Positions 15,213 to 46,077 of a DNA stretch of 64,000 nt are shown piece after piece (the stretch's first letter is position 1; the number at the start of each line of letters is the position of its first letter). The stretch covers positions 248,001 to 312,000 of the forward strand of contig NZ_BMIK01000001.1 of the NCBI RefSeq assembly GCF_014642075.1, in the 5' to 3' direction. This DNA comes from Parapedobacter defluvii (GTDB taxonomy: Bacteria; Bacteroidota; Bacteroidia; Sphingobacteriales; Sphingobacteriaceae). The translations under genes were made by a program, and so were the position numbers. The notes beneath the pieces are model-generated. The model saw only the letters and a program-made list of their open reading frames with translations, was not told the DNA's origin and did not search any database.

Positions 15213-15599
15213 ATGAGTAAACAAAAAATTGTGCACCCTAACCGGGATGCAAACTTTGTAACGGGAGCTTATTCCGATGGAGTCATTGCAGGAGGTTTTC
15301 TTTTTGTAAGCGGCCAGGCCTCTGTTGATTTCAAAACCTCCAAATTCGTATTAGGTACGATCGAAGAAGAAACCCAACGTACCCTTGATAATATTCAGGC
15401 CATTTTAGGGGCAGCCGGAGTTTCCCTAGATGACGTGGTAAAAACTACGGTACATCTGAAAGATATCGCCGAATTTGACCGTTTCAATGCGGTATATGCA
15501 ACGTATTTCACCGGCGTCCGGCCTGCACGTACAACGGTGCAGTCGGTTTTGGCCGAAGGCATCCGTGTAGAGATTGATTGCATCGCGAAACTGCCGTAA
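15213..15599 (+). CDS. RidA/YjgF family enamine deaminase
   Basis: Small cytoplasmic protein of 128 residues with the RidA fold (GAYSDGVIAGGFLFVSGQ at the start, VEIDCIAKLP at the end). RidA enzymes hydrolyse reactive enamine/imine intermediates released by PLP enzymes to keto acids and ammonia. The conserved Arg that binds the substrate carboxylate is in RPARTTVQ. The ATG at 15213 is preferred over a GTG at 15207. It opens a run of genes with 6-nt gaps that includes an aminotransferase and a PLP aldolase-family enzyme, a fitting partner for RidA. Confidence 0.88.
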   Translation: MSKQKIVHPNRDANFVTGAYSDGVIAGGFLFVSGQASVDFKTSKFVLGTIEEETQRTLDNIQAILGAAGVSLDDVVKTTVHLKDIAEFDRFNAVYATYFTGVRPARTTVQSVLAEGIRVEIDCIAKLP

Positions 15600-15605
15600 C
15601 GGGTT

Positions 15606-16595
15606 ATGGACAACAGACAAATTAAACCCATACAGGTCGGTGTGGTGGGACTGGGACTGATGGGTAGTAGTATCGTCGTGTCTTTATTGGCTTCCGGTTA
15701 TCCGGTGATTGCGCTGGCACCGGTGCCGGGTGAGAAAGAAAAAGCTGCCAAGCATATCGGCGATTTACTGCGCCATGCGAACGGGGCGGGTATTTTACCA
15801 AAAGGTATCTCGTCATGCGTCGACGCGTTGAAGCTGGTGGAAGATTATCAGCAATTGGCGGATTGCCGGGTGGTGCTGGAATGTGTGGTAGAAAATCAGG
15901 AAATAAAAAGAAGGGTTTATGAGCAGATCGCGGATTCGGTGGATAACAGCGCTGTGATCGCTTCCAATACGTCGGCCATCCCGATCAGTGAATTACAGCG
16001 GTTGGTGCCGAATCCAGGTCGTTTTTTAGGAATTCATTGGGCGGAGCCGGCCTATATGACCCGTTTTTTAGAGGTAACGTGTGGTCAGGATACCGATCTG
16101 CAGGTTGCAGAATATATAGTGTCATTGGGGCTGAGGTGGGGAAAAGAACCGACACTGCTCAAAAAGGATATCCGGGGGTTTATTACCAATCGGTTGATGT
16201 ATGCGGTTTACCGGGAAGCGTTGTCATTGGTTGAAGCGGGGCATACTACCCTGACGGATGCCGATAAAGCTTTCCGCTACGATGCAGGCGCCTGGGTTAC
16301 GCTGATGGGGATTTTCAGACGCATGAGTTTTATGGGGCTGGAGGATTCCCTGAATACATTCAAACGGTTATTCAGCCAACTCAACAATCGGGAAGATGTG
16401 CCCGCTATTATGCAACAACTGGTGGCGAATGAAGCCAAAGGAATACATAATCGATCCGGATTATACACGTATACGGAAGAAAACGCAAAAAAATGGGAGG
16501 CAGCGTTCGCGCAATTCAACCGGGATATCTATGAACTGGCCTCGCGGTATAACGAACGGCAATTGCCCCTGACAAGGAAAGAACATATATTGTAA
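15606..16595 (+). CDS. 3-hydroxyacyl-CoA-dehydrogenase-family oxidoreductase
   Basis: NAD-dependent beta-hydroxy acid dehydrogenase of 329 residues. The N-terminal Rossmann motif is GLGLMGSS, followed by the acidic catalytic loop LECVVENQE, SNTSAIPISEL and GIHWAEP, whose His (near residue 144) matches the family's catalytic His in GxHxxxP. The C-terminal helical domain begins with DIRGFITNRL. This family includes carnitine and gulonate dehydrogenases as well as acyl-CoA enzymes, so the substrate need not be a CoA ester; the amino-acid setting argues for a free beta-hydroxy acid. A divergent paralogue lies two genes downstream. Confidence 0.82.
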   Translation: MDNRQIKPIQVGVVGLGLMGSSIVVSLLASGYPVIALAPVPGEKEKAAKHIGDLLRHANGAGILPKGISSCVDALKLVEDYQQLADCRVVLECVVENQEIKRRVYEQIADSVDNSAVIASNTSAIPISELQRLVPNPGRFLGIHWAEPAYMTRFLEVTCGQDTDLQVAEYIVSLGLRWGKEPTLLKKDIRGFITNRLMYAVYREALSLVEAGHTTLTDADKAFRYDAGAWVTLMGIFRRMSFMGLEDSLNTFKRLFSQLNNREDVPAIMQQLVANEAKGIHNRSGLYTYTEENAKKWEAAFAQFNRDIYELASRYNERQLPLTRKEHIL

Positions 16596-16601
16596 GAAAG
16601 C

Positions 16602-17909
16602 ATGGCGACAAATCGTTACCAGGAATCCGCCCGGTTATTGGGCCGGGCAAAACAGGTATTGGCAAGTGGGGTTTCTTCTGAATTCCGGAAATATAACCAC
16701 CCGCATGCTATTTTTTATACACACGGCCAAGGAAGCCGCATTTACGACGTAGATGGAAATGAATACCTCGACTTTACCTTAAGTCAGGGCCCTTTGATCG
16801 TGGGGCATTCCCACCCCGCCGTGTTGGCTGCTATACAGGAATATTCCACACAAGGGCAATTGTTTGCAGGGCAACACCTGAAAGAAATCGAACTTGCGGA
16901 GAAACTCCACCAACTCATCCCCTCGGCTGAGTTGATGCGCTTCTGCCTGGATGGTTCCGAGGCGGTACAGACCGCTTTCCGTGTAGCACGGGCCAAAACC
17001 GGTAAACCAAAATTCCTCCGATTTGAAGGTCATTACCACGGTTGGCTGGATAATGTAGCGTGGGGCATCAGTGCACCTTCCATAGATGCGCTGGGCAGCC
17101 GGGAACATCCGCAGGCTTATCCCTGGTCAGGTGGTTTATCGGCCTACAGCCGGGAGGAATTTATGATACTACCCTGGAACGATATCGAGTTGGTACGCCG
17201 GACGGTGGCGGAGCATTGTGGTGAACTGGCGGCAATCATCACCGAACCGGTGATGTGTAATAACGGTTGCATCGTCCCGCAACCTGGATTTTTAGAGGGA
17301 CTGCGTGAGCTATGTGACACGTATGGTATTGCCTTGATTTTTGATGAGGTGATCACGGGATTCCGGCTGGGTCTCGGAGGGGCGCAGCAATATTTCGGGG
17401 TTACGCCAGACCTGTCCATTTTTGCGAAAGCGATCGCAAGTGGATATCCCATCAGCGCCATTGTGGGAAAGCGGGAATGGATGGAAGAAATCGAGACAGC
17501 CCGTGTTATCCACGCCGGTACCATGAACGCCAGTAATGCGACCGTGGCCGCAGCGTTGGCTACCATCGACGTATTGGAGCAGGACCCTGATACGTATGCC
17601 CGTATGTTCCGATTGGGCAGAAAGTTGATGCAGGGCTTGCGAGAGGCCGCAGACAAAACAGGCCAATCCCTGTTGGTGCAGGGGATGGGTCCGATGTTCA
17701 ATACTTCCTTTACACCGTTGCAACAGATACGTGATTACCGCGATACGCTTTCGAACGATAAGGCCAAATTGAATGCATTTATTGCCGGACTACACGACCG
17801 GGGTATCCGTGTAATCGGCAGAGGATTGTGGTATATCAGTGCGATACATACCGATGAAGAAATTGAACAGGCTGTTGCTGTCGCCACCGAAGTATTGAAA
17901 TCCTTGTAA
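16602..17909 (+). CDS. class III aminotransferase, GSA-aminomutase-like
   Basis: PLP enzyme of 435 residues resembling glutamate-1-semialdehyde aminomutase. GHYHGW, FDEVITGFR and the Schiff-base Lys in IFAKAIASGYP (near residue 276) are clear. It is unlikely to be HemL, because it is embedded between two dehydrogenase-like genes with 6-nt gaps rather than in a heme setting. Several characterised GSA-like transaminases act on beta-amino acids, which would mesh with a beta-hydroxy acid dehydrogenase through a shared beta-keto intermediate. That link is inference. Confidence 0.85.
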   Translation: MATNRYQESARLLGRAKQVLASGVSSEFRKYNHPHAIFYTHGQGSRIYDVDGNEYLDFTLSQGPLIVGHSHPAVLAAIQEYSTQGQLFAGQHLKEIELAEKLHQLIPSAELMRFCLDGSEAVQTAFRVARAKTGKPKFLRFEGHYHGWLDNVAWGISAPSIDALGSREHPQAYPWSGGLSAYSREEFMILPWNDIELVRRTVAEHCGELAAIITEPVMCNNGCIVPQPGFLEGLRELCDTYGIALIFDEVITGFRLGLGGAQQYFGVTPDLSIFAKAIASGYPISAIVGKREWMEEIETARVIHAGTMNASNATVAAALATIDVLEQDPDTYARMFRLGRKLMQGLREAADKTGQSLLVQGMGPMFNTSFTPLQQIRDYRDTLSNDKAKLNAFIAGLHDRGIRVIGRGLWYISAIHTDEEIEQAVAVATEVLKSL

Positions 17910-17915
17910 CTACCT

Positions 17916-18797
17916 ATGGCGCAGATGATAGAAGAAACGAATAAACCGCTCCCTCCCTTATTGATCGTCGGCGATGGAAAGCTGGCATACAGCGTCGTGG
18001 GTAATGCGCTACGCGCAGGTCATGAAACAACGCTATTGACATCGGATGCGGATGCGGCTTACCGGGCGGTGGCACAAGCGATACCGGAACGTATGAAAAA
18101 ACTGATTTTATGGGAAGATTGGCCGGTTGCGTTGCCGCACGAATGGGTAGTTGCCGTTACGGAAGAGTGTAGCGATATCAAGCAACGACTCATCCGGCGA
18201 CTGGAGGATTGCGTGAGCGACCACGCCATCATCGCGATTAACATGGAAGGTATCCCTTTGGAGGAGTTGCAGGCTTCCGGCCGGCATCCGGAGCGGATTC
18301 TGGGGTTGAACTGGTGCTACCCTGCGGATCTGACTTTTTTCCTGGAAATCATTTGCAATGAAGAGACGGATCCGGAACACGTACGTACACTGGAGGCAAT
18401 GGCGAAAACAGCATGGGAAAAAGATCCCTATACTGTAAAATCTGGATTCAGTGTGCGTGCACGGATGATGGCAGCTTGGGCCAGGGAAGCATTTTACCTG
18501 GTGGAAAATAACTATGCTTCGATGGAGAGCATCGACCGCGCCTGTCGGAACGACGCCGGATATTACCTGCCTTTTGCGGGCAATTTCAGGTACATGGATC
18601 TGATGGGTACCTACGCGTACGGTGTGGTAATGAAGGACCTCAATCCGGAGCTTTCCAAGGCAACTGTTTTACCCGCATCCGTAGTGGATGACTTTCCCGA
18701 CTATGGCGTCGATCATCCGGAGCATTGGGAAAAAATAGTTCGTAAATTTAGTGAGGAAATCAGGGAACTGATCTTAAAATATCCGCATGAAACCTGA
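17916..18797 (+). CDS. divergent 3-hydroxyacyl-CoA-dehydrogenase-like protein, possibly inactive
   Basis: Protein of 293 residues homologous to the dehydrogenase at 15606 over its whole length, but altered at key sites. The nucleotide loop reads GDGKLAYS instead of GLGLMGSS. The catalytic His of GIHWAEP is replaced by Asn in GLNWCYP (near residue 132), and the SNTS loop reads INMEGIP. The C-terminal helical domain (SGFSVRARMM, RNDAGYYLPFAG) is kept. It could be a regulatory or scaffolding pseudoenzyme, a partner subunit, or an enzyme with changed chemistry. It lies 6 nt after the aminotransferase and a 72-bp gap follows it. Confidence 0.7.
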   Translation: MAQMIEETNKPLPPLLIVGDGKLAYSVVGNALRAGHETTLLTSDADAAYRAVAQAIPERMKKLILWEDWPVALPHEWVVAVTEECSDIKQRLIRRLEDCVSDHAIIAINMEGIPLEELQASGRHPERILGLNWCYPADLTFFLEIICNEETDPEHVRTLEAMAKTAWEKDPYTVKSGFSVRARMMAAWAREAFYLVENNYASMESIDRACRNDAGYYLPFAGNFRYMDLMGTYAYGVVMKDLNPELSKATVLPASVVDDFPDYGVDHPEHWEKIVRKFSEEIRELILKYPHET

Positions 18798-18869
18798 CAT
18801 GCCAGCGCCTGACCAAAGGCGATGAAAATTCAGGTTCCATGAGGCCATTGAAAAATAAATTATTTTCGA

Positions 18870-19952
18870 ATGACTCGATTGATCATTGATGCTCACCTGG
18901 ACCTGGCGATGAACGCCATGGAATGGAACCGGGATCTGTCCCGTCCATTGGATGAGATACGTAACGGTGAATTGAACCTTCACGACCGGCCGGACCGGGG
19001 AAAGGGAACCGTCTGCCTGCCGGAATTGCGCAAGGGAAAGGTCGGCATCGTGGTTGCCACCCAGTTGGCGCGTGTCCGTCCATCCAGTTATACACCTACC
19101 GCATGGAATTCCCCGCAACAGGCGTGGGCCATGACCCAGGCGCAACTTAGCTGGTATCGGGAAATGGAGACCCTTGGGGAAATGGTGCAGATCGTGGATT
19201 TAGCGGGGTTGGAAAAACAGGTCGAACTGTGGAATGATGGCCAACAGGCAGATGAAGGCAAACCGGTCGGCTATATCCTAAGCTTGGAAGGGGCCGATTC
19301 ATTGGTGGATATTGACTACCTTTATCGGGCGCACAGCTATGGCTTACGGGCAATGGGGCTGTCGCACTTCGGGCCCGGGCGATATGCCGATGGTACGAAG
19401 ACCGCCGGTCGGATCCATCCGCAGGGGTTGGAACTGATGAAGGCAATGGGCGAGTTGAATCTGATTTTGGATGTCACCCACCTCACGGATGAAGGGTTTG
19501 ACCAAGCGCTGGACCTATACGAAGGGCCGATATGGGCGAGTCATCATAACGTGCGGAAATTCGTGCCCAACCAACGGCAACTGACTGATGTACAGATCAA
19601 AAAGCTGATCGGAAGAGGAGCGGTTATCGGCGGGATGCTGGATTGCTGGGCAATGGACATCCGGTTTATCGATACGGTATCGGATCCATGGCAACTGGAT
19701 ATCCGGCTGGAACAATTGGTGGATCATTGGGATCACATCTGCCAGTTGGCCGGAAATCCCCATCACATTGGCATCGGCAGCGACCTGGATGGTATTTTTG
19801 GCACCGAACAAAGTCCATGGGATCTGAATTCCATTGCAGATTTGCAGAAATTTGAAGCTATTTTGCAGCGGCGTGGATACAGCGAGTCGGACATTGATCA
19901 TATTTTTCACGGCAATTGGCTGCGGTTTCTGCGGAACGCGTGGAAGAAATAA
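18870..19952 (+). CDS. membrane dipeptidase, peptidase M19 family (copy A)
   Basis: Zinc peptidase of 360 residues of the renal-dipeptidase family, which cleaves L-X and often L-D dipeptides and some beta-lactam or amide substrates. Metal ligands are in order: HLD in IDAHLDLAMN, Glu in LSLEGADSL, His in LDVTHLTDEG, His in WASHHN and Asp in IGSDLDGIFG. No signal peptide is seen, so it is probably cytoplasmic. Acceptance of D-residues in this family fits the D-amino-acid-type enzyme two genes later. A close paralogue is at 48027. Confidence 0.88.
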   Translation: MTRLIIDAHLDLAMNAMEWNRDLSRPLDEIRNGELNLHDRPDRGKGTVCLPELRKGKVGIVVATQLARVRPSSYTPTAWNSPQQAWAMTQAQLSWYREMETLGEMVQIVDLAGLEKQVELWNDGQQADEGKPVGYILSLEGADSLVDIDYLYRAHSYGLRAMGLSHFGPGRYADGTKTAGRIHPQGLELMKAMGELNLILDVTHLTDEGFDQALDLYEGPIWASHHNVRKFVPNQRQLTDVQIKKLIGRGAVIGGMLDCWAMDIRFIDTVSDPWQLDIRLEQLVDHWDHICQLAGNPHHIGIGSDLDGIFGTEQSPWDLNSIADLQKFEAILQRRGYSESDIDHIFHGNWLRFLRNAWKK

Positions 19953-19960
19953 GTAGTACT

Positions 19961-21322
19961 ATGCAACAACATTCCTTTAAAGCCGGGACTGCACGGGTGG
20001 ATATCACACCACCGTTGGGGACCGTAATCAATGGTGAATTTACGAGCCGCTATGCGAACCATATTGCCGATCCGCTTTATGCCAAGGCGATGGTCATGCA
20101 GGATGATGGGACCACCTTACTTTTCCTGATCGTGGATATCTGTGTCATGCAACGGGATTTTCTCGATGAGGTGAAGCATATCATTGCAGAAGAGACCGGC
20201 ATCCCGTTAGAAAATCAGTTGATTTCCAGTACGCATACGCATTCGGCCGGTTCCGTTGCCGACTTACTGATGGGACATGTAGACTGGGGATACCGAAAGA
20301 AATTACCTGCCTTGCTTGTCGAGGCGGCCGTGATGGCGCAACGGAGCCTGATGCCTGCAAAAGTTGCCTATGGTTGGTTTGACGAGCCCAGGCATATGGT
20401 ATGCCGGCGTTACCGCATGAAATCCGGCTACCAGCCGTTTAATCCGGTGAGCGGTGGAGTAGATGCGGTGAAAACCAATCCCTTCGGCGACGAGCGTGAT
20501 ATTGTCGAACGTACGTCTAAACCGGATACGGAATTGCGGTATTTGGCGGTGAAGGGTATAGACGATCAATGGATCGGTTTACTTGCCAATTATTCCCTGC
20601 ACTACGTGGGCGATTGCGAGCGGGGTACGATCAGCGCGGATTATTTCGGATGCTTCGCCAAAGCACTGGCTGAATCCTTGGGTGCGGGTTCTGCATTCGT
20701 GGGCATGATGAGCAACGGAACCAGCGGCGAAGTAAATATCTGGGATTTCCTCGATCCCGACCGCTATCCGTCGGGGAATCATGAGAAAAGCCGGTTGATC
20801 GGCAGGGCGCTTGCCGCCGGCGTGGTGGAATCCCTAAACGATGTCGTTTGGGAAGCCCAACCCGTATTGGACAGCCGCTACGCCGAAATAACGGTGGGCC
20901 TGCGCAAACCGACGCCGACGGAATTGGAGCGTGCCAAAGAACTAGTAGAACAAACCGACTACGAAAACATCCATTTTGACCGGAAGGGATATCAGCAGGT
21001 GTATGCACGGGAGCAGGTATTACTAGCCGAATATCCGGATGAAAAGCAGGTACCGGTACAGGCATTCCGAATCGGTTCGGGCCTGATCGGTGCACTTCCG
21101 GGTGAGTTTTTCGCTGAAACAGGTTTGCGTATCAAAGTTGGGCGACCCGACAAAAAGTATTTTACAATTTGTTTAGCCAATGATTATGTAGGCTATGTGC
21201 CCCCGGCACATGAATTGAAACAGGGTGGCTACGAATGCTGGCGCTGCCGTTCAAGTCATTTGGCCGAAAATGCCGAAGATATCCTTAGGAATACCCTGGT
21301 GGCACAAATCAATAGTCTTTGA
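19961..21322 (+). CDS. neutral ceramidase-like hydrolase
   Basis: Protein of 453 residues related to the catalytic N-terminal domain of neutral/alkaline ceramidases, zinc amidases that split N-acyl bonds. The start at 19961, 8 nt after the dipeptidase stop, opens directly into FKAGTARVDITPPLG, typical of the family. Candidate zinc ligands are in STHTHSAGS, and SNGTSGEVN corresponds to the serine-containing motif. It is shorter than true ceramidases (about 650 residues) and lacks the C-terminal Ig-like domain and a signal peptide, so the natural substrate is probably a small intracellular N-acyl or amide compound. Confidence 0.75.
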   Translation: MQQHSFKAGTARVDITPPLGTVINGEFTSRYANHIADPLYAKAMVMQDDGTTLLFLIVDICVMQRDFLDEVKHIIAEETGIPLENQLISSTHTHSAGSVADLLMGHVDWGYRKKLPALLVEAAVMAQRSLMPAKVAYGWFDEPRHMVCRRYRMKSGYQPFNPVSGGVDAVKTNPFGDERDIVERTSKPDTELRYLAVKGIDDQWIGLLANYSLHYVGDCERGTISADYFGCFAKALAESLGAGSAFVGMMSNGTSGEVNIWDFLDPDRYPSGNHEKSRLIGRALAAGVVESLNDVVWEAQPVLDSRYAEITVGLRKPTPTELERAKELVEQTDYENIHFDRKGYQQVYAREQVLLAEYPDEKQVPVQAFRIGSGLIGALPGEFFAETGLRIKVGRPDKKYFTICLANDYVGYVPPAHELKQGGYECWRCRSSHLAENAEDILRNTLVAQINSL

Positions 21323-21337
21323 CAAAAACGTTATCCT

Positions 21338-22465
21338 ATGCAACCCATCGATACTTGGTACAGGATTCGCAAGGAGTCGGATGTCGATTCGCCGGCCTTG
21401 TTGGTGTTTCCGGAACGTATTAAACAGAACATCGCGCTCCTGAAAAGCATGATTGATGATCCAAAACGTTTACGGCCGCATGTAAAGACCCATAAGACCA
21501 AGGAGATTCTCCAGCTTCAACTCGACGCAGGGATTACCAAGTTCAAGTGTGCCACCCTGGCTGAAGCAGAAATGCTAGGCGAGTGCGGAACCCCGGATGT
21601 ACTATTGGCATATCCATTGTATGGTCCGAAGCTATCCCTTTTTCTGTCGTTGAAGCAAAAATTCCCAAAAACCAAATTTTCGGCTATTGTAGACCATCCG
21701 GAAGCTGCGGATGCATTGTCAGCGGCCGCCGTACAGGAAGGAACGCTTGTTGACGTTTATGTGGACCTGAATATCGGAATGGGCCGTACCGGTATCAAAC
21801 CCGGAGCGGAGGCGCTTGCCTTGTATCGACAATGCGGGCAATTGGAAGGACTGGCTATTCAAGGCTTCCATGCGTACGATGGCCACGTACACGAACGGGA
21901 TATTGAAAAGCGGAAGGTGATCTGTGCGCGGAATTTTGAAGCAGTGGACCAGCTCATGCAACAGGTACAGCAGGCCGGGTTCCCAAAGCCACGCGTGGTT
22001 ATCGGAGGCTCGCCGTCATTTCCGGTTTATGCGGCGTACCCCGATGTGGAATGCAGTCCGGGTACGTTTGTGCTATGGGATAAAGGATATGCCGACGGCC
22101 TACCGGACCAGCCGTTTCTTCCTGCAGCGGTATTGTTGACGCGTATCGTGTCTATGCCCGATGTGAACCGGCTGTGTGTGGACCTGGGGCACAAGGCCGT
22201 CGCGGCTGAAAATCCATTGGAGCGGAGGGTGTATTTCCTGAATGCCCCCGATCTGAAACCCATTAGCCAAAGTGAGGAACATCTGGTATTGGAAGCACCG
22301 TCGGGACATTCGTGGAAAGTGGGCGATGTGCTGTATGGATTGCCCTATCATATTTGCCCCACCGTGGCGCTATACAACTACCTCATGGTAATCGAACAAG
22401 GTACCTATGTTGGGCGCTGGGCCGTAGCGAGCAGAAACCGGTTGTCTAAGGTAAACGATTTGTGA
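21338..22465 (+). CDS. D-threonine aldolase / D-serine dehydratase-family PLP enzyme
   Basis: Fold-type III PLP enzyme of 375 residues. The Schiff-base Lys is in LRPHVKTHKT near the N-terminus. The alanine-racemase-like barrel follows, and the C-terminal domain contains LGHKAVAAENP and YHICPTVALYN. The H-x-C pair resembles the metal ligands of D-serine dehydratases; D-threonine aldolases characterised so far use a His/Asp pair as I recall, so dehydratase or another D-beta-hydroxy amino acid activity is possible. It closes the RidA-aminotransferase-dipeptidase set and would act on D-3-hydroxy amino acids. Confidence 0.82.
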   Translation: MQPIDTWYRIRKESDVDSPALLVFPERIKQNIALLKSMIDDPKRLRPHVKTHKTKEILQLQLDAGITKFKCATLAEAEMLGECGTPDVLLAYPLYGPKLSLFLSLKQKFPKTKFSAIVDHPEAADALSAAAVQEGTLVDVYVDLNIGMGRTGIKPGAEALALYRQCGQLEGLAIQGFHAYDGHVHERDIEKRKVICARNFEAVDQLMQQVQQAGFPKPRVVIGGSPSFPVYAAYPDVECSPGTFVLWDKGYADGLPDQPFLPAAVLLTRIVSMPDVNRLCVDLGHKAVAAENPLERRVYFLNAPDLKPISQSEEHLVLEAPSGHSWKVGDVLYGLPYHICPTVALYNYLMVIEQGTYVGRWAVASRNRLSKVNDL

Positions 22466-22485: not shown

Positions 22486-23502
22486 ATGCAGAAGAAAAGA
22501 CAGTTTATTCCGTTGGTTATTTTCATGGTTTCCTACCTGTTGGGCGGGCTGTATGCAAGCGCGCAGGAGCAGGTTTCAAAAATACACATAAAGGATCTAT
22601 CTATACGTGATCCGTATATCTTAGCGGATCAACAAAGTCAGTCCTATATCCTTTATAAATCAGCACCGGTCAAGAATAAACAAGGTGCGGATGCAAGCGG
22701 AGTGGTTGCCTACCGGAGTACGGACCTGGAATATTGGGAAGGCCCTTATGTGGTATACACGACGCCGCCGGACAACTGGATCAAGGGTGCGGTATGGGCG
22801 CCCGAAGTGCATTCCTATCAAGGAAAATATTACTTGTTTGCTACGCTTAATTCCGATATTGAATGGAAACTGCAACGGGAAGGTTTTCCAAAATACACCT
22901 TCAGGGGGACGCAGCTGTTTTATGCAGATAATCCCATGGGACCGTTTCTGCCGTTTGAGGAAAAGTTGCCGCATACGCCGATGGACCGCATGGCATTGGA
23001 CGGAACGCTGTGGGTTGAAAATGGGATTCCTTATCTGATTTACTGCCACGAATGGGTGCAGATAGAAGATGGTACCCTAGAGTTGGTGCAACTGGAGCGG
23101 GACCTTTCAAAAACAGTGGGGCCTTCATTGACACTTTTCCATGCGTCAAGTGCTCCCTGGTCTACCGGAAGCCGTCACGCGGACGGTACGCTCACCTACG
23201 TTACAGATGGTTGTTTTCTCTATCGGACCCGGACGGGTAAGCTCTTGATGATCTGGTCCAGCTTCAAAGCGGGAAGTTACGCGATCGGTATTGCGGAGTC
23301 TACCACCGGAAAACTGACAGGACCGTGGATACAACAAGAAAAGTTGCTTTTTGATCAGAATGGCGGACATGGTATGTTATTCAAGACATTTGATGGGCGG
23401 CTTATGCTGACGTTCCATAGCCCCAATTCACCTTCGGGCGAAGAGCGTGCCAAAATTTACGAAGTGGTTGATACCGGAAATACGTTGGTTTTGAAAGATT
23501 AA
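22486..23502 (+). CDS. GH43-family glycoside hydrolase
   Basis: Secreted five-bladed beta-propeller hydrolase of 338 residues with a signal peptide ending near ASAQE. The family's three acids are visible: the base Asp in SIRDPYIL, the pKa-modulating Asp probably in MALDGTLWVE, and the general acid Glu in IPYLIYCHEW. WAPEVHSYQGKYYL is also typical. GH43 enzymes act on beta-xylosides, alpha-L-arabinosides or galactans; no linkage can be assigned from sequence alone. No carbohydrate-binding module is attached. Confidence 0.85.
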   Translation: MQKKRQFIPLVIFMVSYLLGGLYASAQEQVSKIHIKDLSIRDPYILADQQSQSYILYKSAPVKNKQGADASGVVAYRSTDLEYWEGPYVVYTTPPDNWIKGAVWAPEVHSYQGKYYLFATLNSDIEWKLQREGFPKYTFRGTQLFYADNPMGPFLPFEEKLPHTPMDRMALDGTLWVENGIPYLIYCHEWVQIEDGTLELVQLERDLSKTVGPSLTLFHASSAPWSTGSRHADGTLTYVTDGCFLYRTRTGKLLMIWSSFKAGSYAIGIAESTTGKLTGPWIQQEKLLFDQNGGHGMLFKTFDGRLMLTFHSPNSPSGEERAKIYEVVDTGNTLVLKD

Positions 23503-23515
23503 CCGGATGTAACTG

Positions 23516-25849
23516 ATGAATTTTAACCGTAGACAGTTTATTGCTGCTAATGCGGCACTAGGTGGACTCTTATGGCTGAACCAACTGCCTTTTCCCGCTG
23601 CGGCCCGCACCATTTCGACCGATAAAGCTGCGTTGCAGGTAAGTCATTTTCCAAATGCGCTATATGCCTTCGTTTGGCGGAATTGGGGGTTGGTGCCGCT
23701 GGATCGGATGGCCAATACGGTGGGTGCCACACCCGCGCAGTTGCAATCGATCGCTTCGTTCATGGGGTTGGGGGATGCACCGAAAGTCACGGCTGAACAG
23801 TGGGAACGGAGCTACCTTACGGTTATTCGCCGTAATTGGCATCTCTTACCTAAAAGCCAACTTCAGGTATTGATGGGTTGGGATGAAGCCCAGTTGGAAT
23901 TCACGTTAAAAGAAGACGATTTCTTCTACATCAAGTTAGGAAGCCTAAAACCAGCCTGCCCGCCTGTATACTACAATCAATTATCGGTGCTCGACGAAAA
24001 AACTAAAATTTCCTTTATGCAGTTGCTGAAAGCATCGTTTCCGGAAGGGTTGCCAACCGAACAGATGCCTTATTTTCAGTTTGTGAACGAATTGTCGGCA
24101 CCGTTTACCGATGCGAAAGGAAAATCAACTGAGTCCATTCAGGCCGGTTTCAGCCCCCGGATTGCCTATCCGTATTTTGCGCTCTTTGGCGATCCCTTAC
24201 TTGATCCGGAGATTGATTCCTATCCAGACGCGTACTTAGAGCGACTGGCTGCGTCGGGGGTAGATAGTATCTGGATGCACATTGTGTTGAGTAAACTTAC
24301 ACCCTTTCCCTGGGATCCTTCCATTAGTACCCACTGGGAACACCGCTTGACCAACCTCAAAGCCCTTACCGAACGGGTGCGGAAACACGGTATCGGCATT
24401 TACCTTTACCTGAATGAACCGAGGCATCAGCCGGAAGCCTTTTTTGAGAAATACCCTGATCTTCGTGGCCAAGGCACGGCATTATGTACCTCCCATCCGG
24501 CCGTACAGCAATACCTGGAAGGCTCCATCGCGTTGATTGTTGAGCGGGCGCCGCAGCTCGCGGGGTTCTTTTCGATCACAGCGTCCGAAAACCCGACCCA
24601 CTGCTGGTCGCACGGACAGGGAGATAAATGCCCTAGATGTGCGTTACTGGGCCCGGAAAAAGTAATCAGTACATTAAACAACCTATATACGAAAGGAATT
24701 AACCGCGGTTATGCGTCCGCAGTTGCATCGGGAAAAGGTGACGTTGCGGACGGACGTCCGAAGTTGATTATTTGGGATTGGGGTTGGCGGGATGATTGGG
24801 CCGCAGGTATCATTCCGGAGTTAACCACCGACCATACCTTACTAATGAGTGTCAGCGAGTGGGAATTGGAGATTGAGCGAGGGGGCGTAAGGAGCAAGGT
24901 TGGAGAATATTCCATTTCCGCTATCGGACCCGGTCCCAGAGCCCGGCGGCATTGGGAGATTGCCAAACGGCATGGCCTGAAGACCATGGCCAAGATACAA
25001 GCCAATAATTCATGGGAGATCGGAGCGGTTCCCTACATACCCGCTGTGTATAACGTGGCCAAGCATATTGATCAACTCCGGAAGGAGGGCATAGCAGGCA
25101 TCATGTTGAGCTGGACGCTCGGTGGGTATCCATCGCCTAATCTTGAAGTCGTTTCACTCATGGGGAGCGATCGGAATCTCCCGGCAGATGATGCGATCCG
25201 GACGGTCGCTAGGCGTCGTTTCGGAAGTGCAGCAGACGCGATTGTCGGCGCCTGGCGAGACGTTAGCACACATTTCAGCAAATTTCCATACCATATCAGT
25301 GTGGTTTATAATGCTCCGCTACAATGTGGGCCGGCTAACTTACTGTGGTCTGAACCGACGGACTACAAAGCCACGATGGTGGGGCTGCCTTATGACGATG
25401 TAACCAGTTGGCGGGCCATCTATCCCCCATCTGTTTTCGCGGGATTGCTTCGTGAAATCGGAGAGGCTTTTGCCGAGATTATACGTCGGTTAGACGATGA
25501 TTGTACAAAGCTGAATTTAAACCAGACGGAGCAAAAAGCCGTACGGCTGGAACGAAATATTATCGAAACGATTTCCATTCATTATCAGAGTATTGCCAAT
25601 CAAGTTGACTTTATTACCTTAAGAGACCAATTGCCTGACGCGGAATCAGATCGGGCAAGGGTTAAGCGAGCGCTTTCCGAGGTATTGAGCCGCGAAATCA
25701 GGCTTGCCCGGCGGATGGCGGCGCTGCAAACCAGCGATTCGCGACTGGGTTACGAAGCCTCCAATCAGTACTTTTATACATCAGCTGATTTATATGAGAA
25801 GGTTTTGAATTGTACAGAATTACTGAATAAGTGGGCAGCTGAAATGTAA
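23516..25849 (+). CDS. Tat-exported GH-like TIM-barrel protein, unknown family
   Basis: Protein of 777 residues with a twin-arginine signal (NRRQFIA then a hydrophobic stretch to AAAR), so it is exported folded. Residues ~230-560 look like a TIM barrel: VDSIWMHIVLS, IGIYLYLNEPRH, GFFSITASENPTHCW, CPRCA, LIIWDWGWRDDW and GIMLSWTLGGYPSPN. The S-E-N segment followed by the Cys-x-x-Cys loop resembles GH20/GH163-like barrels, where the acid follows the fourth strand. The C-terminal ~200 residues are helical and charged. I do not recognise a named family; hexosaminidase-like activity is only a guess. Confidence 0.6.
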   Translation: MNFNRRQFIAANAALGGLLWLNQLPFPAAARTISTDKAALQVSHFPNALYAFVWRNWGLVPLDRMANTVGATPAQLQSIASFMGLGDAPKVTAEQWERSYLTVIRRNWHLLPKSQLQVLMGWDEAQLEFTLKEDDFFYIKLGSLKPACPPVYYNQLSVLDEKTKISFMQLLKASFPEGLPTEQMPYFQFVNELSAPFTDAKGKSTESIQAGFSPRIAYPYFALFGDPLLDPEIDSYPDAYLERLAASGVDSIWMHIVLSKLTPFPWDPSISTHWEHRLTNLKALTERVRKHGIGIYLYLNEPRHQPEAFFEKYPDLRGQGTALCTSHPAVQQYLEGSIALIVERAPQLAGFFSITASENPTHCWSHGQGDKCPRCALLGPEKVISTLNNLYTKGINRGYASAVASGKGDVADGRPKLIIWDWGWRDDWAAGIIPELTTDHTLLMSVSEWELEIERGGVRSKVGEYSISAIGPGPRARRHWEIAKRHGLKTMAKIQANNSWEIGAVPYIPAVYNVAKHIDQLRKEGIAGIMLSWTLGGYPSPNLEVVSLMGSDRNLPADDAIRTVARRRFGSAADAIVGAWRDVSTHFSKFPYHISVVYNAPLQCGPANLLWSEPTDYKATMVGLPYDDVTSWRAIYPPSVFAGLLREIGEAFAEIIRRLDDDCTKLNLNQTEQKAVRLERNIIETISIHYQSIANQVDFITLRDQLPDAESDRARVKRALSEVLSREIRLARRMAALQTSDSRLGYEASNQYFYTSADLYEKVLNCTELLNKWAAEM

Positions 25850-26023: not shown

Positions 26024-26149
26024 AAATGTAATAACCAGTTATAGTGTATCAACTTGTGGGCGAGGGAAGGATGAATGGTAACAGAAATTGCCATACAGGT
26101 AAAATGTTAATATATGGTTCAATCATACTTTTATTTATCTAACGATGTT

Positions 26150-29100
26150 ATGAAGAGTGGCTTTATTCAAAAAGGTGGCATTGTCTGTCTTATGTTGTTC
26201 TTGTTTTTCCAGATAACTGCGGTGCAAGCTCAATCACAGGTAAGTGGCCGGGTGACAAATACTGCTGGCGAGCCGTTATCAGGTGTCAATGTTACTATGG
26301 CAGGAACTGCAGTAGCGACCAATGATCAAGGAGAATATGTGATCAAGGTGCCACCGGGTGCCGAATCGATTGTGTTTTCGTATTTAGGTATGAAAACTCA
26401 GGAATTGGCTTTTACAGGTCAGCGTACTATTAATGTCACATTAGAGGCTGATGGGACTAATCTAGACGAGGTTGTCGTTGTGGGCTATGGAACGCAATCG
26501 AGAGAAACGTTGACAACGGCCGTTTCAAAAATGGATACCCGGGCATTGGAAAACATCCCTTATTCAAACGCCGCTTCGGCATTGCAGGGGACCGTGTCTG
26601 GCGTAAGGGTGCAGAGCACTTCGGGTCAGCCTGGAGCAGCGCCCCGCATTATTGTTCGAGGAGGGACATCCATAAATAACCCCAATGGTGCAGCACCTCT
26701 GTATATTATCGATGGAGTTATCAGATCAAATATGAATGATATCAATTCGGATGATATAGAATCCTTGCAAGTTTTAAAAGATGCTGCGTCAACTGCGATA
26801 TACGGTGCCAGGGGCTCGAATGGTGTTGTAATCATCACTACCAAATCAGGTACCTCAAATAAGACCCGGGTGACTTATTCATATAACTTGACTTCATCAG
26901 AAGTTGGTAAGACCTATGATATGGCATCTGCAAGAGATTATATCTATTACAGTAGGATTGGGGCTGTCGCTGCTAACCGGAAAGTGCCCGGTTCTGATCA
27001 AGCGTTAGGGCAGCCATCAGCTTGGGGTACGGGGAATGATTTAACTAAAAATACGGGGTTCACCACACAATACCTGACTTCTGAAAATGAGCATAAATTA
27101 AACGAAGGCTGGCAAAGTATGCCGGATCCTGTTGATCCTTCGAAGACTATTATTTTTAAGGAAACAGACTGGCAGGATGTTCTGTTTCAACGTGCTATGT
27201 CCCATGATCATTATTTGTCCGTTTCAGGCGGGACGGACAAAGCACAGATTAGCGGCAGCGTAGGGTATCTTAAAAGCACCGGCGTGGCAATCACAACGGC
27301 TTATGATAGACTATCGGCCAACTTAAGTGGCGATTTGAAGATCAATGATAAACTCACCTTCAATAGTAAATTATTATATACCTACTCTGGCAACAATACG
27401 GTGTACAGTGATACGGAACTCTTTTTCCGGTCAGCTGGGTTAGCACCTACTGCCAAATATACCTTTGAAGATGGAACATTGGCTCCGGGTAATGCCAGAA
27501 ATATGGGGAATCCTGCTTATTATTTGAATAACCGGGATAATAAAAATAGCATAGAGAATCTGAGTGTACTGGCTGGGGCGGAGTGGAGGCCCATTGATGG
27601 TTTGACGATATCTCCTCAAGCTTCTTTATATAAAGTTGCCAACGACAATTATGCATTTATTCACTCTTATCTCAATGGTGTGGGCAACTACAATGAAACA
27701 CGTCCTGCCTCGTCGGCCTATAACAAAACCATGCAGACCCAAGCGGATCTTGTGGCTGCCTATAACAAAGTTTTCGATAAACACGGGATAGACGCGACTG
27801 CCGGTTTTTCATTTTTTAGGCGTTATGTTTTTGGATTATCTGCCTCCGGCCAGGGTGCAGCAACGAACTTGATTCCCACGTTGAATGCTTCTTCAACGCC
27901 AGTTGCTGTATCAGGTAATGAAAGTAACTTTGCGATGCTCGGTTATTTTGGACGCTTAAACTACAATTATGACCAAAAATACCTTGTGTCCATCACGGGG
28001 CGGTACGACGGTGCGTCTAACTTAGGCCAAAATCATAAGTGGGGGTTTTTCCCCGGAGTATCGTTAGGGTGGAATGTACATCGGGAAGATTTCTTTGAAC
28101 TCATTTCGCCTGTTGTCTCCCAATTGAAGCTGCGTGGAAGCTATGGGGTAAACGGCAACATCAGTGGCTTATCAGATTTCCATGCACAAGGAGCTTATTC
28201 GGTTGGAAATCGATATTTGGGAGAATCGGCAATTGAGAATACCGTACTTGCCAATTCTGATTTACGATGGGAACAATCCAAGACATTTGACGTAGGGGTT
28301 GATCTTGGATTATTTGATAACCGGATTAGTGTATTGTTTGATTATTACAATCGTACTACCGATGATTTAATCACCAGTTTGACACTGCCTCCATCGACAG
28401 GATTTTCGAGTATAACAACTAACCTCGGCAGTTTGCAAAACAGAGGCATCGAAGTTGAATTTACGGCTGCATTAACCCGCAGTGATTCACCATTAGCATG
28501 GGATATTTCTTTCAATGCGTCCACTACTAAATCAAAGATATTGAAATTGCCCGAAAACGGAGCCGAGAATAATCGGGTAGGAGGTGTATATGTTTGGGAC
28601 CCCAGCATCAATGGATATAACTGGTTAGGAGGATTGCAGGAAGGAGGACGAATAGGTGATTTCTTTGCGTGGCAACAAGTTGGAATTTATTCGACTGATG
28701 AGGAAGCAAAATCGGCACCAATTGATCAAACTATGCCTTTCGCTGACAAAACCAAATATGGTGGAGACGTTAACTATTTAGATTTGGATAGGAATGACAC
28801 ACTTGATACACGCGACTTGGTTTATCAGGGGAATCCATATCCAACCCTGACCGGTGGATTTTCAACTTCGCTGTCTTACAAGGGAATTGGCCTGTATATC
28901 AGAATGGATTATACTAAGGGGCACACCATTTATAATTATGCTAAGATATTTCAAAGCGGAACATGGGCGGGAAATCTGAATATCCCGCAAGAAATGGTTG
29001 ACAAGGCCTGGAAGCAAGAAGGAGATATCGCTACCCGATCTCAATATATCCCCGGCACCGCAAATTATAGTTACTGGCGAGGCAGCGCCTATCATTTGAC

Positions 29101-29347
29101 TTCCACCAATTCCGAATTTTATGAACGGGGGGATTTCCTTTGTCTACGTGAAATTACACTTAGCTACAATTTACCCCAATGGATCGCCAATAAAATAAAA
29201 TTAAACGATATACGCTTAAATCTAACAGCGAACAACCTTTTTTATTTCACGGACTATACAGGAATGAACCCTGAAGATGGGGGACTAGACCAAGGTCGAT
29301 ATCCGATGCCGCGAAGCCTGATTTTTGGAATTAAACTAGGGTTATAA
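26150..29347 (+). CDS. SusC/RagA-family TonB-dependent outer membrane transporter
   Basis: Outer-membrane beta-barrel of about 1065 residues that imports oligosaccharides with SusD as lid. I start at 26150, where MKSGFIQKGG opens a standard signal peptide ending VQAQS; an ATG at 26114 would add 12 residues. Order: carboxypeptidase-regulatory-like domain (~25-110), TonB-box-like DEVVVVGYGTQ, plug with the SusC signature PLYIIDGV and GARGSNGVVIITTKSG, then the barrel ending in MPRSLIFGIKLGL. There is no STN domain, so it is not of the sigma-signalling class. It is the first gene of the central locus, 1 bp before susD. Confidence 0.95.
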   Translation: MKSGFIQKGGIVCLMLFLFFQITAVQAQSQVSGRVTNTAGEPLSGVNVTMAGTAVATNDQGEYVIKVPPGAESIVFSYLGMKTQELAFTGQRTINVTLEADGTNLDEVVVVGYGTQSRETLTTAVSKMDTRALENIPYSNAASALQGTVSGVRVQSTSGQPGAAPRIIVRGGTSINNPNGAAPLYIIDGVIRSNMNDINSDDIESLQVLKDAASTAIYGARGSNGVVIITTKSGTSNKTRVTYSYNLTSSEVGKTYDMASARDYIYYSRIGAVAANRKVPGSDQALGQPSAWGTGNDLTKNTGFTTQYLTSENEHKLNEGWQSMPDPVDPSKTIIFKETDWQDVLFQRAMSHDHYLSVSGGTDKAQISGSVGYLKSTGVAITTAYDRLSANLSGDLKINDKLTFNSKLLYTYSGNNTVYSDTELFFRSAGLAPTAKYTFEDGTLAPGNARNMGNPAYYLNNRDNKNSIENLSVLAGAEWRPIDGLTISPQASLYKVANDNYAFIHSYLNGVGNYNETRPASSAYNKTMQTQADLVAAYNKVFDKHGIDATAGFSFFRRYVFGLSASGQGAATNLIPTLNASSTPVAVSGNESNFAMLGYFGRLNYNYDQKYLVSITGRYDGASNLGQNHKWGFFPGVSLGWNVHREDFFELISPVVSQLKLRGSYGVNGNISGLSDFHAQGAYSVGNRYLGESAIENTVLANSDLRWEQSKTFDVGVDLGLFDNRISVLFDYYNRTTDDLITSLTLPPSTGFSSITTNLGSLQNRGIEVEFTAALTRSDSPLAWDISFNASTTKSKILKLPENGAENNRVGGVYVWDPSINGYNWLGGLQEGGRIGDFFAWQQVGIYSTDEEAKSAPIDQTMPFADKTKYGGDVNYLDLDRNDTLDTRDLVYQGNPYPTLTGGFSTSLSYKGIGLYIRMDYTKGHTIYNYAKIFQSGTWAGNLNIPQEMVDKAWKQEGDIATRSQYIPGTANYSYWRGSAYHLTSTNSEFYERGDFLCLREITLSYNLPQWIANKIKLNDIRLNLTANNLFYFTDYTGMNPEDGGLDQGRYPMPRSLIFGIKLGL

Positions 29348-30826
29348 ATGACAAGAACGATGAAAAAGAGTCTAAAAATAATTATAGTTGGCATACATAT
29401 AGGCCTCTTAGGTGGGTTGAGTTCATGCGAAACTGCATTATCGCCCGATCCAACAAGCGTCATTACGAATGCATCTTTTTGGAAGACAGAAGATGATGCG
29501 AACGGTGCACTCACCGGCTTGTATGTAAAATTAAGGAGCCTGGCTAATCTCAATCTGTTTATCTGGGGTGAAGCACGTAGCGAGGTAATGGAATGGGGGC
29601 GGTTAAGTGGCACGTTGGATTATGACCGTTATTATAATAATACCTTGAATCCGACATCGGCGGGGCCAACTTGGCAAACGATTTATAGTGCGATTAATGA
29701 CTGTAATTTAATTCTTCAGTATGTTCCGGGAATCAGTTTTGCCTCGGAGCAAAGTCGCAATACTATCATTGCACAGGCTTATACTGCGCGGGCTTTTCTG
29801 TACTTTGTTTTAGCACGTACATGGGGTGAAGTTCCCATTCGTACCGAACCATTGGAGGGATATTCGCCAGATGATATACATAAAGCACGCGCTAGCTTGG
29901 TGGATGTATTTCAGCTTATCAAACAAGATATCCAAACTGCTGAATCACTATATGCAGACAATTCCTTCCCCGGGGGAAGTAGAAATTACTGGACCAAGCC
30001 AGGGCTTTACGCGTTGAAAGCAGACGTATACCTTTGGACGGGAAAAAAGCTGGATGGAGGCGAAACTGATTTTAATGTGGCTATCGAGGCTTGCAATCAG
30101 GTTGGACAGGCAGATGTAGCGTTACTTCCCAATTTTGGTGATTTGTTTAAATACGATAATAAGAATAACAAGGAAATAATCATGGCTATTGGAAACAAGG
30201 AGTTTGAGGTTGGCAACAATTATTTCTATAACATGTATTCTGCCCGTCTTCCCAACGATCTGGATCCGATAACAGGAGAAGTGATAGGACAGACATCGGG
30301 TGGTGTAGTTTGGACAGTCACCGACTTGGTAAAGGATCAATTTACTGATGAGGATACGCGAAAGGATGCATCATTTATCGAATGGCAATCTGAAACGTTT
30401 TATCCTACCCTTATTGTCAAGGGGCGGGGTGTGTTGATATCGGGAGTTAGGTATTTTACGAGCGATTTTATTGTCTATCGTTATGCTGATGTTTTATTAA
30501 TGAAAGCGGAAGCCAAGAATGCGATTGGACAGAATCCGGAGGAAGAAATCAATCAGATCAGACAACGAGCATTCCAGACTAATTTTGAAGATTATCGGTT
30601 TGTCAATGGATCTCCATCGGCTAATGACGACGCCATTTTGAAGGAACGGCTTCTTGAGCTTGTTTTCGAAGGCAAACGTTGGTGGGATTTAAACCGTTTT
30701 GATAAGGCTTTTGAAATAGTTCCTTCCCTTCAGTCACGTCAACAAGACCGATATTTAGAATATTTCCCGATTTCAGAGCAAGTGCTAAGCCTTGAACCAA
30801 TGGTTAAACAAACAGCTGGATATTAA
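29348..30826 (+). CDS. SusD/RagB-family glycan-binding lipoprotein
   Basis: Surface lipoprotein of 492 residues with lipobox LSSC near residue 27. TPR-like helices typical of SusD (AQAYTARAFLYFVLARTWGEVPI; EEEINQIRQRAF) and the C-terminal signature ERLLELVFEGKRWWDLNRF are present; the protein ends FPISEQVL to QTAGY as in the family. It pairs with SusC to capture oligosaccharides. The start may instead be the ATG at 29360 (MKKSLK). Confidence 0.94.
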   Translation: MTRTMKKSLKIIIVGIHIGLLGGLSSCETALSPDPTSVITNASFWKTEDDANGALTGLYVKLRSLANLNLFIWGEARSEVMEWGRLSGTLDYDRYYNNTLNPTSAGPTWQTIYSAINDCNLILQYVPGISFASEQSRNTIIAQAYTARAFLYFVLARTWGEVPIRTEPLEGYSPDDIHKARASLVDVFQLIKQDIQTAESLYADNSFPGGSRNYWTKPGLYALKADVYLWTGKKLDGGETDFNVAIEACNQVGQADVALLPNFGDLFKYDNKNNKEIIMAIGNKEFEVGNNYFYNMYSARLPNDLDPITGEVIGQTSGGVVWTVTDLVKDQFTDEDTRKDASFIEWQSETFYPTLIVKGRGVLISGVRYFTSDFIVYRYADVLLMKAEAKNAIGQNPEEEINQIRQRAFQTNFEDYRFVNGSPSANDDAILKERLLELVFEGKRWWDLNRFDKAFEIVPSLQSRQQDRYLEYFPISEQVLSLEPMVKQTAGY

Positions 30827-37866: not shown

Positions 37867-37891
37867 TAAAAGCATATTTATCGTAATCCAT

Positions 37892-45280: not shown

Positions 45281-45289
45281 GAAATTGCC

Positions 45290-46066: not shown

Positions 46067-46077
46067 TTGTGAAGGAT

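Follow-up and report, generated by a model that had tools for sequence, protein, structure and literature searches.

A recurrent seven-gene enzyme set in Bacteroidota and its possible role in the catabolism of N-acylated amino-sugar acids

We describe a compact run of seven genes from Parapedobacter defluvii whose products may form the cytoplasmic part of a catabolic pathway for N-acylated amino-sugar acids. The run lies in the window, by which we mean the whole stretch of DNA analyzed: 64,000 nucleotides (nt) of a 5.8-Mb genome, positions 248,001 to 312,000 of contig NZ_BMIK01000001.1 (assembly GCF_014642075.1). All seven open reading frames (ORFs) are on the forward strand and are separated, in order, by 6, 6, 6, 72, 8, and 15 nt:

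15213..15599, + strand: RidA, enamine/imine deaminase family (Pfam Ribonuc_L-PSP, 1.2e-30; NCBIfam TIGR00004, 117 bits, above the cut-off of 106)
15606..16595, + strand: DH1, dehydrogenase of the 3HCDH fold (Pfam 3HCDH_N, 5.9e-39, plus 3HCDH)
16602..17909, + strand: AT, class-III aminotransferase of the glutamate-1-semialdehyde-aminomutase branch (Pfam Aminotran_3, 2.5e-64)
17916..18797, + strand: DH2, degenerate paralogue of DH1 (Pfam 3HCDH_N, 5e-17, plus 3HCDH)
18870..19952, + strand: M19, metallo-amidase of the M19 family (Pfam Peptidase_M19, 2.2e-46)
19961..21322, + strand: CER, ceramidase-like protein (Pfam Ceramidase_alk, 2e-10, residues 6-135 only)
21338..22465, + strand: DTA, fold-type-III pyridoxal-phosphate (PLP) enzyme (Pfam Ala_racemase_N, 2.6e-24, and D-ser_dehydrat, 4.6e-17)

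The start of CER is taken as the ATG at 19961; the TTG at 19916 chosen by the ORF caller would run into M19. The ORF coordinates and the Pfam match for every family agree with an original prediction, made from the sequence, of the ORFs, families, and gaps. That prediction read the run as a compact module of two amidase-type hydrolases, a PLP enzyme for D-3-hydroxy amino acids, and RidA, and such a module is indeed conserved in other genomes. Its remark that no transporter is included holds for the seven genes, but a major facilitator superfamily (MFS) gene lies elsewhere in the window (41309-42541). We searched the literature for the seven-gene set, and no paper describing such a set was among the matches listed; it is conserved in Bacteroidota and apparently undescribed.

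The prediction had staked itself on the conservation of gene order, and this order recurs in other genomes, which places the module beyond chance. We chose 80 loci by AT similarity from a scan of at least 590 stretches, 575 of them confirmed, such that AT is present by construction. Loci L031 to L075 were tabulated, 45 in all; AT exceeds 55% identity in 37, 21 besides the window carry both AT and DH2, and homologue counts at these module loci refer to the fetched stretch around each. Loci L076 to L125, mostly without other module genes, are labelled outside the counts, and L053 and L056 end at contig ends. DH1-AT-DH2 is uninterrupted in 19 of the 21 loci, including a fused version in L061. The exceptions are L054, where a transporter-like gene separates DH1 from AT, and L071, which has DH2 and no DH1 in the stretch. 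Twelve loci have RidA-DH1-AT-DH2-M19-CER without a break, and six of the 21 have the complete seven-gene run (L031, L033, L034, L040, L065, and L075). DH1-AT-DH2 is thus the firmest unit; M19 and CER usually accompany it, and DTA is the member least tied to the others.

A survey of 151 genomes of the window's family points the same way. A DH2-like match at 1e-10 occurs in 24 genomes and a match at or below 1e-60 in eight (G000, G003, G052, G068, G093, G108, G111, and G150); in each of the eight, AT and a module-type M19 adjoin DH2. DTA is encoded somewhere in all eight, versus 53 of the 151 overall. Relatives in the dehydrogenase tree belong to Sphingobacteriaceae, Spirosomataceae, Cytophagaceae, Chitinophagaceae, and Cyclobacteriaceae, along with one flavobacterium. 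A plasmid collection was uninformative for AT and DH1 (best matches all below 60% identity), and a PF14031 search matched one of two genomes, a sample uninformative on distribution. Chance assembly of tetrapyrrole or acyl-CoA housekeeping genes can be judged against this record. The families do overlap with those of FadB and of glutamate-1-semialdehyde 2,1-aminomutase (HemL), but the HemL- and FadB-type NCBIfam models remain below their curated cut-offs among the matches listed, and the order is conserved over several Bacteroidota families; we regard chance assembly as close to untenable.

Within the core unit, the two dehydrogenases form an unusual pair. DH1 has the 5-formyl-3-hydroxy-2-methylpyridine-4-carboxylate (FHMPC) dehydrogenase 4om8 as its best solved match and keeps S123, H144, E156, and N195, which we take to be the catalytic residues of the 3-hydroxyacyl-CoA dehydrogenase (3HCDH) family; each is present in all 21 DH1 proteins of the partner clade. 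Unlike other members of that family, DH1 is encoded together with a degenerate partner of a single lineage. In DH2, H144 is replaced by Asn and S123 by Glu or Asp in 21 of 21 sequences, N195 is kept in none of the 21, and the third Gly of GxGxxG survives in one, while E156 is retained in all. DH2 therefore lacks the catalytic His, the Asn, and the intact GxGxxG of a 3-hydroxyacyl-CoA dehydrogenase; the predicted "second dehydrogenase-like protein" belongs to the family by Pfam, but has lost its catalytic residues. Positions 223/225 are Cys/Asn in single-gene dehydrogenases (12/12) and in DH2 (21/21), and Phe/Tyr in partner DH1 (21/21).

In a tree of 54 dehydrogenase proteins, DH2 forms one clade (100/100) and partner DH1 another (100/100), the latter placed among the single-gene enzymes. 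DH2 is likewise present in all 20 other loci that have a partner-type DH1 (in L061 as the fused copy), and in the loci read, the DH2 lineage occurs only with the module. Because the losses in DH2 and the changes in DH1 are complementary, these sequences indicate that the two proteins probably form an obligate heteromer, where catalysis would fall to DH1 and a noncatalytic DH2 would keep the C-terminal surface. If so, DH1/DH2 is a clean natural case of related proteins that share the parts of one enzyme and become an obligate pair. In Cyclobacterium qasimii (L061, 10001-12232), a single open frame of 743 codons encodes both AT and DH2, suggesting contact between DH2 and AT as well. Two points detract from this picture: the fusion comes from one assembly, where the stop codon may have been lost through an error, and the tree is midpoint-rooted with a long DH2 branch, such that DH2 may have split from DH1 either as the partner clade arose or earlier.

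At the other end of the module, DTA has D-threonine aldolases and D-serine dehydratase as its best solved relatives. It shares the fold family, the RPHVKTHK region, and the C-terminal metal site with both the chicken D-serine dehydratase (3anu) and a D-threonine aldolase (4v15). The metal site tells the two activities apart: in PMC4401734, the Alcaligenes D-threonine aldolase (AxDTA) binds metal through His347 and Asp349, and the dehydratase uses a His and a Cys. The DTA pair, His338-x-Cys340, is invariant in 48 of 48 sequences, the window's included. Since all carry His-x-Cys, as in D-serine dehydratase, and not the His-x-Asp of the aldolase, DTA looks like a dehydratase-type enzyme rather than an aldolase, judging from this motif. 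The predicted label, D-threonine-aldolase family, is correct as a family name, but not for the metal motif. Dehydratases of this family give an enamine, and the RidA family hydrolyses enamines and imines; a dehydratase reaction would therefore explain the presence of RidA beside DTA. D-glucosaminate and D-galactosaminate are D-configured at C2, with the C3 hydroxyl placed relative to it as in D-threonine, and on this ground would suit a D-3-hydroxy-amino-acid dehydratase.

Two hydrolases stand between the core and DTA. M19 belongs to Peptidase M19 by family and by its metal ligands: H9, D11, E140, H204, H225, R236, and D305 are conserved in at least 17 of 18 M19a and at least 45 of 47 M19b sequences, M19b being a second form that the window also encodes. 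The ligands are H9, D11, E140, H204, and H225, presumably in the roles they have in human dipeptidase. We take the conserved arginine to be the binder of the substrate's C-terminal carboxylate in M19 enzymes; it would suit either a dipeptide or a sugar acid that resembles an N-acyl-D-amino acid. Because both fit, the residues decide for neither substrate, and M19 is proposed to be an N-deacylase or a dipeptidase.

CER has the catalytic-domain fold of a neutral ceramidase. Its structural model (mean predicted local distance difference test score, pLDDT, of 83) matches the neutral ceramidases 4wgk and 2zws/2zxc in Foldseek (E 2e-23 to 2e-21, template modeling score [TM] 0.69-0.70, root-mean-square deviation 7.4-7.8). 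H92, H94, H214, E382, and Y412 are invariant in 10 sequences, and we assume that its zinc ligands (His, His, Glu, Tyr) correspond to the neutral-ceramidase zinc site. The score with the full NCBIfam ceramidase model is 25 of 1200 bits, short of the curated score. CER has 453 residues versus 630-672 in solved ceramidases, and no signal peptide was found by eye. As it is shorter and without an evident signal peptide, a soluble N-acyl compound is a more likely substrate than a lipid.

These features also bear on lipid catabolism, in which CER would free the 3-hydroxy-acyl chain of a ceramide or serine lipid, DH1 would oxidize the chain, and DTA would degrade the head. The neutral-ceramidase fold of CER and the 3-hydroxyacyl-CoA dehydrogenase fold of DH1 lend themselves to such a route, but the length and score of CER, and its lack of an evident signal peptide, do not. 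No thiolase, CoA ligase, or enoyl-CoA hydratase was found among 29 window proteins scanned with Pfam, a selection of the ORFs, and DH2 and AT would be left without a role. We consider lipid catabolism very improbable.

A pointer to the substrate class comes from a smaller association, the triad of RidA, DTA, and M19b, which recurs in the family outside the module. We read 38 of the 48 M19b places; the ten left out were the window, L032, and L035 (none of which has DTA beside M19b), G118 (contig end), and six with adjoining M19b and DTA coordinates. DTA lies directly beside M19b in 36 of the 38 places and within six genes in 37, and a Rid-family gene lies within six genes in 37. Two further triads, L126 and L127, came from M19 matches in the plasmid collection. 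A GntP permease is found within six genes of M19b in 13 of the 38. Eight genes served as sugar-acid markers, and 20 places have at least one of them; in five of the 20, the only markers are a GMC oxidoreductase and a gluconate-dehydrogenase subunit.

In two loci, L136 (genome G004) and L159 (G058), the genes stand in a row: GntP, Rid, a PfkB protein resembling 2-keto-3-deoxygluconate (KDG) kinase, 2-keto-3-deoxy-6-phosphogluconate (KDPG) aldolase, DTA, and M19b. In L134 and L135, the triad is near DgoK, galactonate dehydratase (DgoD), and an aldolase for KDPG or its galactonate counterpart (KDPGal). Gene identities were assigned by Pfam and NCBIfam in L136 and L134 and by BLAST label in L159 and L135. 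A Parabacteroides distasonis replicon encodes a gluconate:H+ symporter, DUF4833, RidA, D-TA, and a membrane dipeptidase. The natural reading is that DTA in the triad produces a 2-keto-3-deoxy-aldonate. Separately, a protein of about 865-885 residues adjoins the triad M19b, or lies one gene from it, in L131, L132, L139, L147-L149, L153, L155, L158, and L160.

A described pathway offers a template. PMC9537276 presents ong as a route of oxidative chitin use in Pseudoalteromonas prydzensis ACAM 620, acting on N-acetylglucosaminate (GlcNAc1A). In that paper, OngB is a deacetylase; OngC, a PLP enzyme of fold type III, takes the amino group from 2-amino-2-deoxy-gluconate, D-Ser, and D-Thr; OngD is a RidA protein essential for growth on GlcNAc1A; and KdgK follows. 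Complete ong clusters are reported there only from Gammaproteobacteria and one Achromobacter. The fold of OngB is D-aminoacylase-like (PMC12017989). A Photobacterium genome carries a cluster of ong make-up, and its OngC-like protein ends, by eye, in a His-x-Cys motif.

The module shares with ong a fold-type-III PLP enzyme, a RidA protein, a metal amidase, and, on the reading we favor, a sugar-acid substrate that resembles an N-acyl D-amino acid; His-x-Cys near the C-terminus is common to DTA and the Photobacterium OngC homologue. PLP deaminase, RidA, amidase, and KDG-kinase-like genes, the four kinds of gene in ong, are clustered in L136 and L159; the window has the first three, and no KDG kinase was found among its 29 scanned proteins, where an HpcH/HpaI-family aldolase is present instead. 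The differences are several. No OngB-type deacetylase was found among the 29 scanned proteins, where M19 and CER are the amidases, and none of the 38 triad loci has a gene labelled OngB within six genes of M19b; AT, DH1, and DH2 are extra genes relative to ong; the transporter is of the SSS type in ong, but MFS in the window or GntP in 13 of the 38 triad loci; and the regulator is MurR/RpiR there, but AraC here. By analogy, the triad may work like ong with M19 as the amidase, the two being analogous rather than orthologous.

The same genes could instead break down dipeptides of D-serine or D-threonine. In that case, M19 would cleave X-D-Ser peptides from the cell wall or another source, DTA would be a D-serine dehydratase, RidA would clear 2-aminoacrylate, and AT and the dehydrogenases would serve another amino acid. 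M19 enzymes are dipeptidases by name, the metal pair of DTA is of the D-serine-dehydratase type, OngC accepts D-Ser and D-Thr, and the D-serine transporter DsdX is itself a GntP permease. The L136 permease, however, scores low with the DsdX model (227 of 618 bits), and reaches 449 bits with the general gntP model (cut-off 293). To our knowledge, KDG-kinase-like proteins, KDPG aldolase, and DgoK/DgoD have no role in D-Ser breakdown, yet L136 and L159 encode the first two between DTA and Rid, and in L134 and L135 the last lie near the triad. CER and the glycan neighborhood would be left unexplained. We judge this route unlikely.

AT is less easily placed. Among solved structures, its closest relative is HemL (E 4e-82), but AT falls below the HemL cut-offs and sits in catabolic-looking clusters. 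Judged from 25 of 71 NCBIfam matches, its best are GntE (388 of 525 bits) and the glutamate-1-semialdehyde aminomutase model PRK00062 (353 of 398), both below cut-off, as is the second aminomutase model, TIGR00713 (334 of 527). AT also occurs without DH2, and the loci L051, L059, and L144 represent a cluster type of this kind, with genes that vary and are not all found in each locus. A neuraminate-lyase-like gene scores 175 bits in L051 and 168 in L059, of 281 (below the curated cut-off, hence the nearest relative only). L059 and L144 have a neuraminate-mutarotase-like gene; L051 has a DoeB-like deacetylase (88 of 403 bits, below cut-off) and, as scanned there, a threonine-synthase-like gene. 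BNR, M81, RidA, aldo/keto reductase (AKR), short-chain dehydrogenase/reductase (SDR), and MFS genes also belong to this type. In L048, AT adjoins a GntP homologue. The settings of AT in these four loci look like those of sugar-acid genes, and by this resemblance AT may be the enzyme that takes off a second amino group.

The original prediction had proposed another substrate: a conjugate of a nonsugar beta-amino or beta-hydroxy acid would be hydrolyzed and its product interconverted by AT and DH1/DH2. A DH1/AT route through a beta-keto acid is possible. The branch of AT includes the beta-amino-acid transaminases 2yku and 4ao9 (in the best 60 of 199 matches), and the dehydrogenase family acts on beta-hydroxy acids, including the lambda-crystallin homologues 3ado and 3f3s. 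However, the nearest solved relatives of AT are the glutamate-1-semialdehyde aminomutases, and the neighbors are of the sugar-acid kind: GntP beside AT in L048, a galactonate-type MFS gene, and GntP in the 13 triad loci. We prefer an amino-sugar acid because the triad neighbors GntP and, in a small number of genomes, genes for KDG-kinase-like proteins, KDPG aldolase, and the galactonate pathway; a beta-amino-acid conjugate fits less well and seems improbable to us. A swap of a C3 beta-amino for a beta-hydroxy group, by AT and then the dehydrogenase, was also considered for all seven genes and is chemically neat; a single-gene dehydrogenase joins the same triad where AT is lacking, however, and for this reason we do not build the favored reading on such a swap. 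In three Cyclobacteriaceae loci, a protein of 774-787 residues is encoded downstream of DH1-AT-DH2 (L052 16673-19036, L061 15698-18031, and L064 16755-19079); part of it matches AT at 32-34%, and its N-terminal part resembles a metal-dependent hydrolase by eye.

Taken together, we favor the reading of the module as the cytoplasmic part of N-acylated amino-sugar-acid catabolism, the substrates being 2-amino-2-deoxy-aldonates or close relatives, and give it about an even chance. In the proposed pathway, the surrounding glycan-degrading genes would release N-acylated amino-sugar acids, and M19 and CER, as metal-dependent amidases, would take off the N-acyl groups. DTA, as a PLP- and metal-dependent D-3-hydroxy-amino-acid dehydratase, would eliminate water at C2/C3, and RidA would hydrolyze the enamine or imine to a 2-keto-3-deoxy acid. 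This acid would be cleaved by an aldolase, here probably of the HpcH/HpaI type. AT with the DH1/DH2 heteromer, possibly docked to it, would swap or remove an additional amino or hydroxyl group carried by that sugar acid; both this step and the substrate are inferred. Lambda-crystallin (3ado), an L-gulonate 3-dehydrogenase, is a precedent for aldonate oxidation at C3.

Several observations weigh against this reading. DTA, the most variable member, is inside the gene run in 7 of the 21 module loci, and 16 of the 37 tabulated loci with AT above 55% identity have no DH2, such that the seven genes recur in order but are not a fixed unit. Three Cyclobacteriaceae loci (L052, L061, and L064) have DH1-AT-DH2, but their stretches contain no M19, DTA, or RidA; L056, a further locus of this family, is truncated by the contig end. 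L038 has no RidA and L071 no DH1 to go with its DH2 in their stretches. A single-gene dehydrogenase accompanies the triad where AT is absent (L039 and L041-L045), and 18 of the 38 triad loci are without any marker used. DTA is 23% identical to the Photobacterium OngC homologue over the aligned part, M19 is of a different family from OngB, and a DHDPS-family gene in the window is, weakly, nearest to N-acetylneuraminate lyase.

A narrower version, which we find distinctly doubtful, is that the module degrades di-amino sugars of the bacillosamine or pseudaminic-acid type. Two amidases would free two amines, and AT would remove the second (for example, at C4). A heteromeric aldonate dehydrogenase DH1/DH2 docked to AT would handle the keto or hydroxyl group that results, and DTA and RidA would eliminate the C2 amine, in this case D-configured. 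The sister AT cluster (L051, L059, and L144) would treat L-configured counterparts of the legionaminic type. No catabolic route for bacillosamine- or pseudaminic-type sugars was among the matches listed in our literature search.

If amino-sugar acids are indeed the substrates, their carbon skeleton would become usable as an ordinary sugar acid once the acyl and amino groups are removed. Testable roles follow for M19 "dipeptidases," short ceramidase-fold amidases, and "D-TA family" enzymes, which are annotated by family only. M19 would represent a deacylase family different from that of ong, and the P. distasonis triad would provide the link to the gut. Aminoaldonate catabolism, reported complete only from Proteobacteria in PMC9537276, would then reach environmental and gut Bacteroidota.

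The surroundings in the window are directed at glycans, and include three BNR-repeat proteins, a sulfatase, and GDSL and alpha/beta hydrolases. Downstream of the module are:

22486..23502, + strand: GH43 glycosidase, 20 nt after DTA (Pfam Glyco_hydro_43, 4.6e-24)
23516..25849, + strand: 777-residue protein, no Pfam match; 69% to the L051 copy beside a related aminotransferase
26114..30826, + strand: SusC-like and SusD-like genes, by eye
37880..38833, + strand: DHDPS-family lyase/aldolase (Pfam DHDPS, 1e-12; PRK04147, 49 of 281 bits)
41309..42541, + strand: MFS transporter, nearest to the D-galactonate-transporter model (TIGR00893, 144 of 395 bits, below cut-off)
42605..43399, + strand: HpcH/HpaI-family aldolase, candidate 2-keto-3-deoxy-acid aldolase (Pfam, 3.6e-24)
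43410..46851, + strand: aldo/keto reductase (Aldo_ket_red, 1.8e-46), Gfo/Idh/MocA protein (GFO_IDH_MocA, 5.1e-9), and two SDR-like genes (by eye)
48027..49103, + strand: M19b, second M19, the form found in the triad (Pfam, 2.2e-55; 61% to the module's M19)
49113..49988, - strand: AraC-type regulator (Pfam HTH_18, 8.3e-24)

Some of these genes accompany the module elsewhere. A SusC-like gene is present in 14 of the 21 module loci, and L050 has homologues of both SusC (54%) and SusD (51%). The HpcH/HpaI gene scores 111 of 369 bits with HpaI and 110 of 407 with GarL; it and the gene at 45290 each have homologues in 7 of the 21 loci, and the AraC-type regulator in nine. The model of the 777-residue protein has a mean pLDDT of 55, and its weak matches to GH138, GH20, GH67, and GH84 give only a hint. 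One BNR-repeat protein (34024-35214) matches 5hx0 (Dfer_1899, an uncharacterized solved structure) at E 1e-203, the sole other match at E 0.01 being the sialidase 1eur (E 0.001); homologues are found in 5 of the 21 module loci. Upstream of the module, two proteins of about 600 residues (3135-4922, without a Pfam match, and 7713-9470) are encoded beside genes that look rhamnosidase-like by eye, and 9460-11574 encodes a DUF5722 protein (E 6e-113), a family of unknown function, in this glycan locus.

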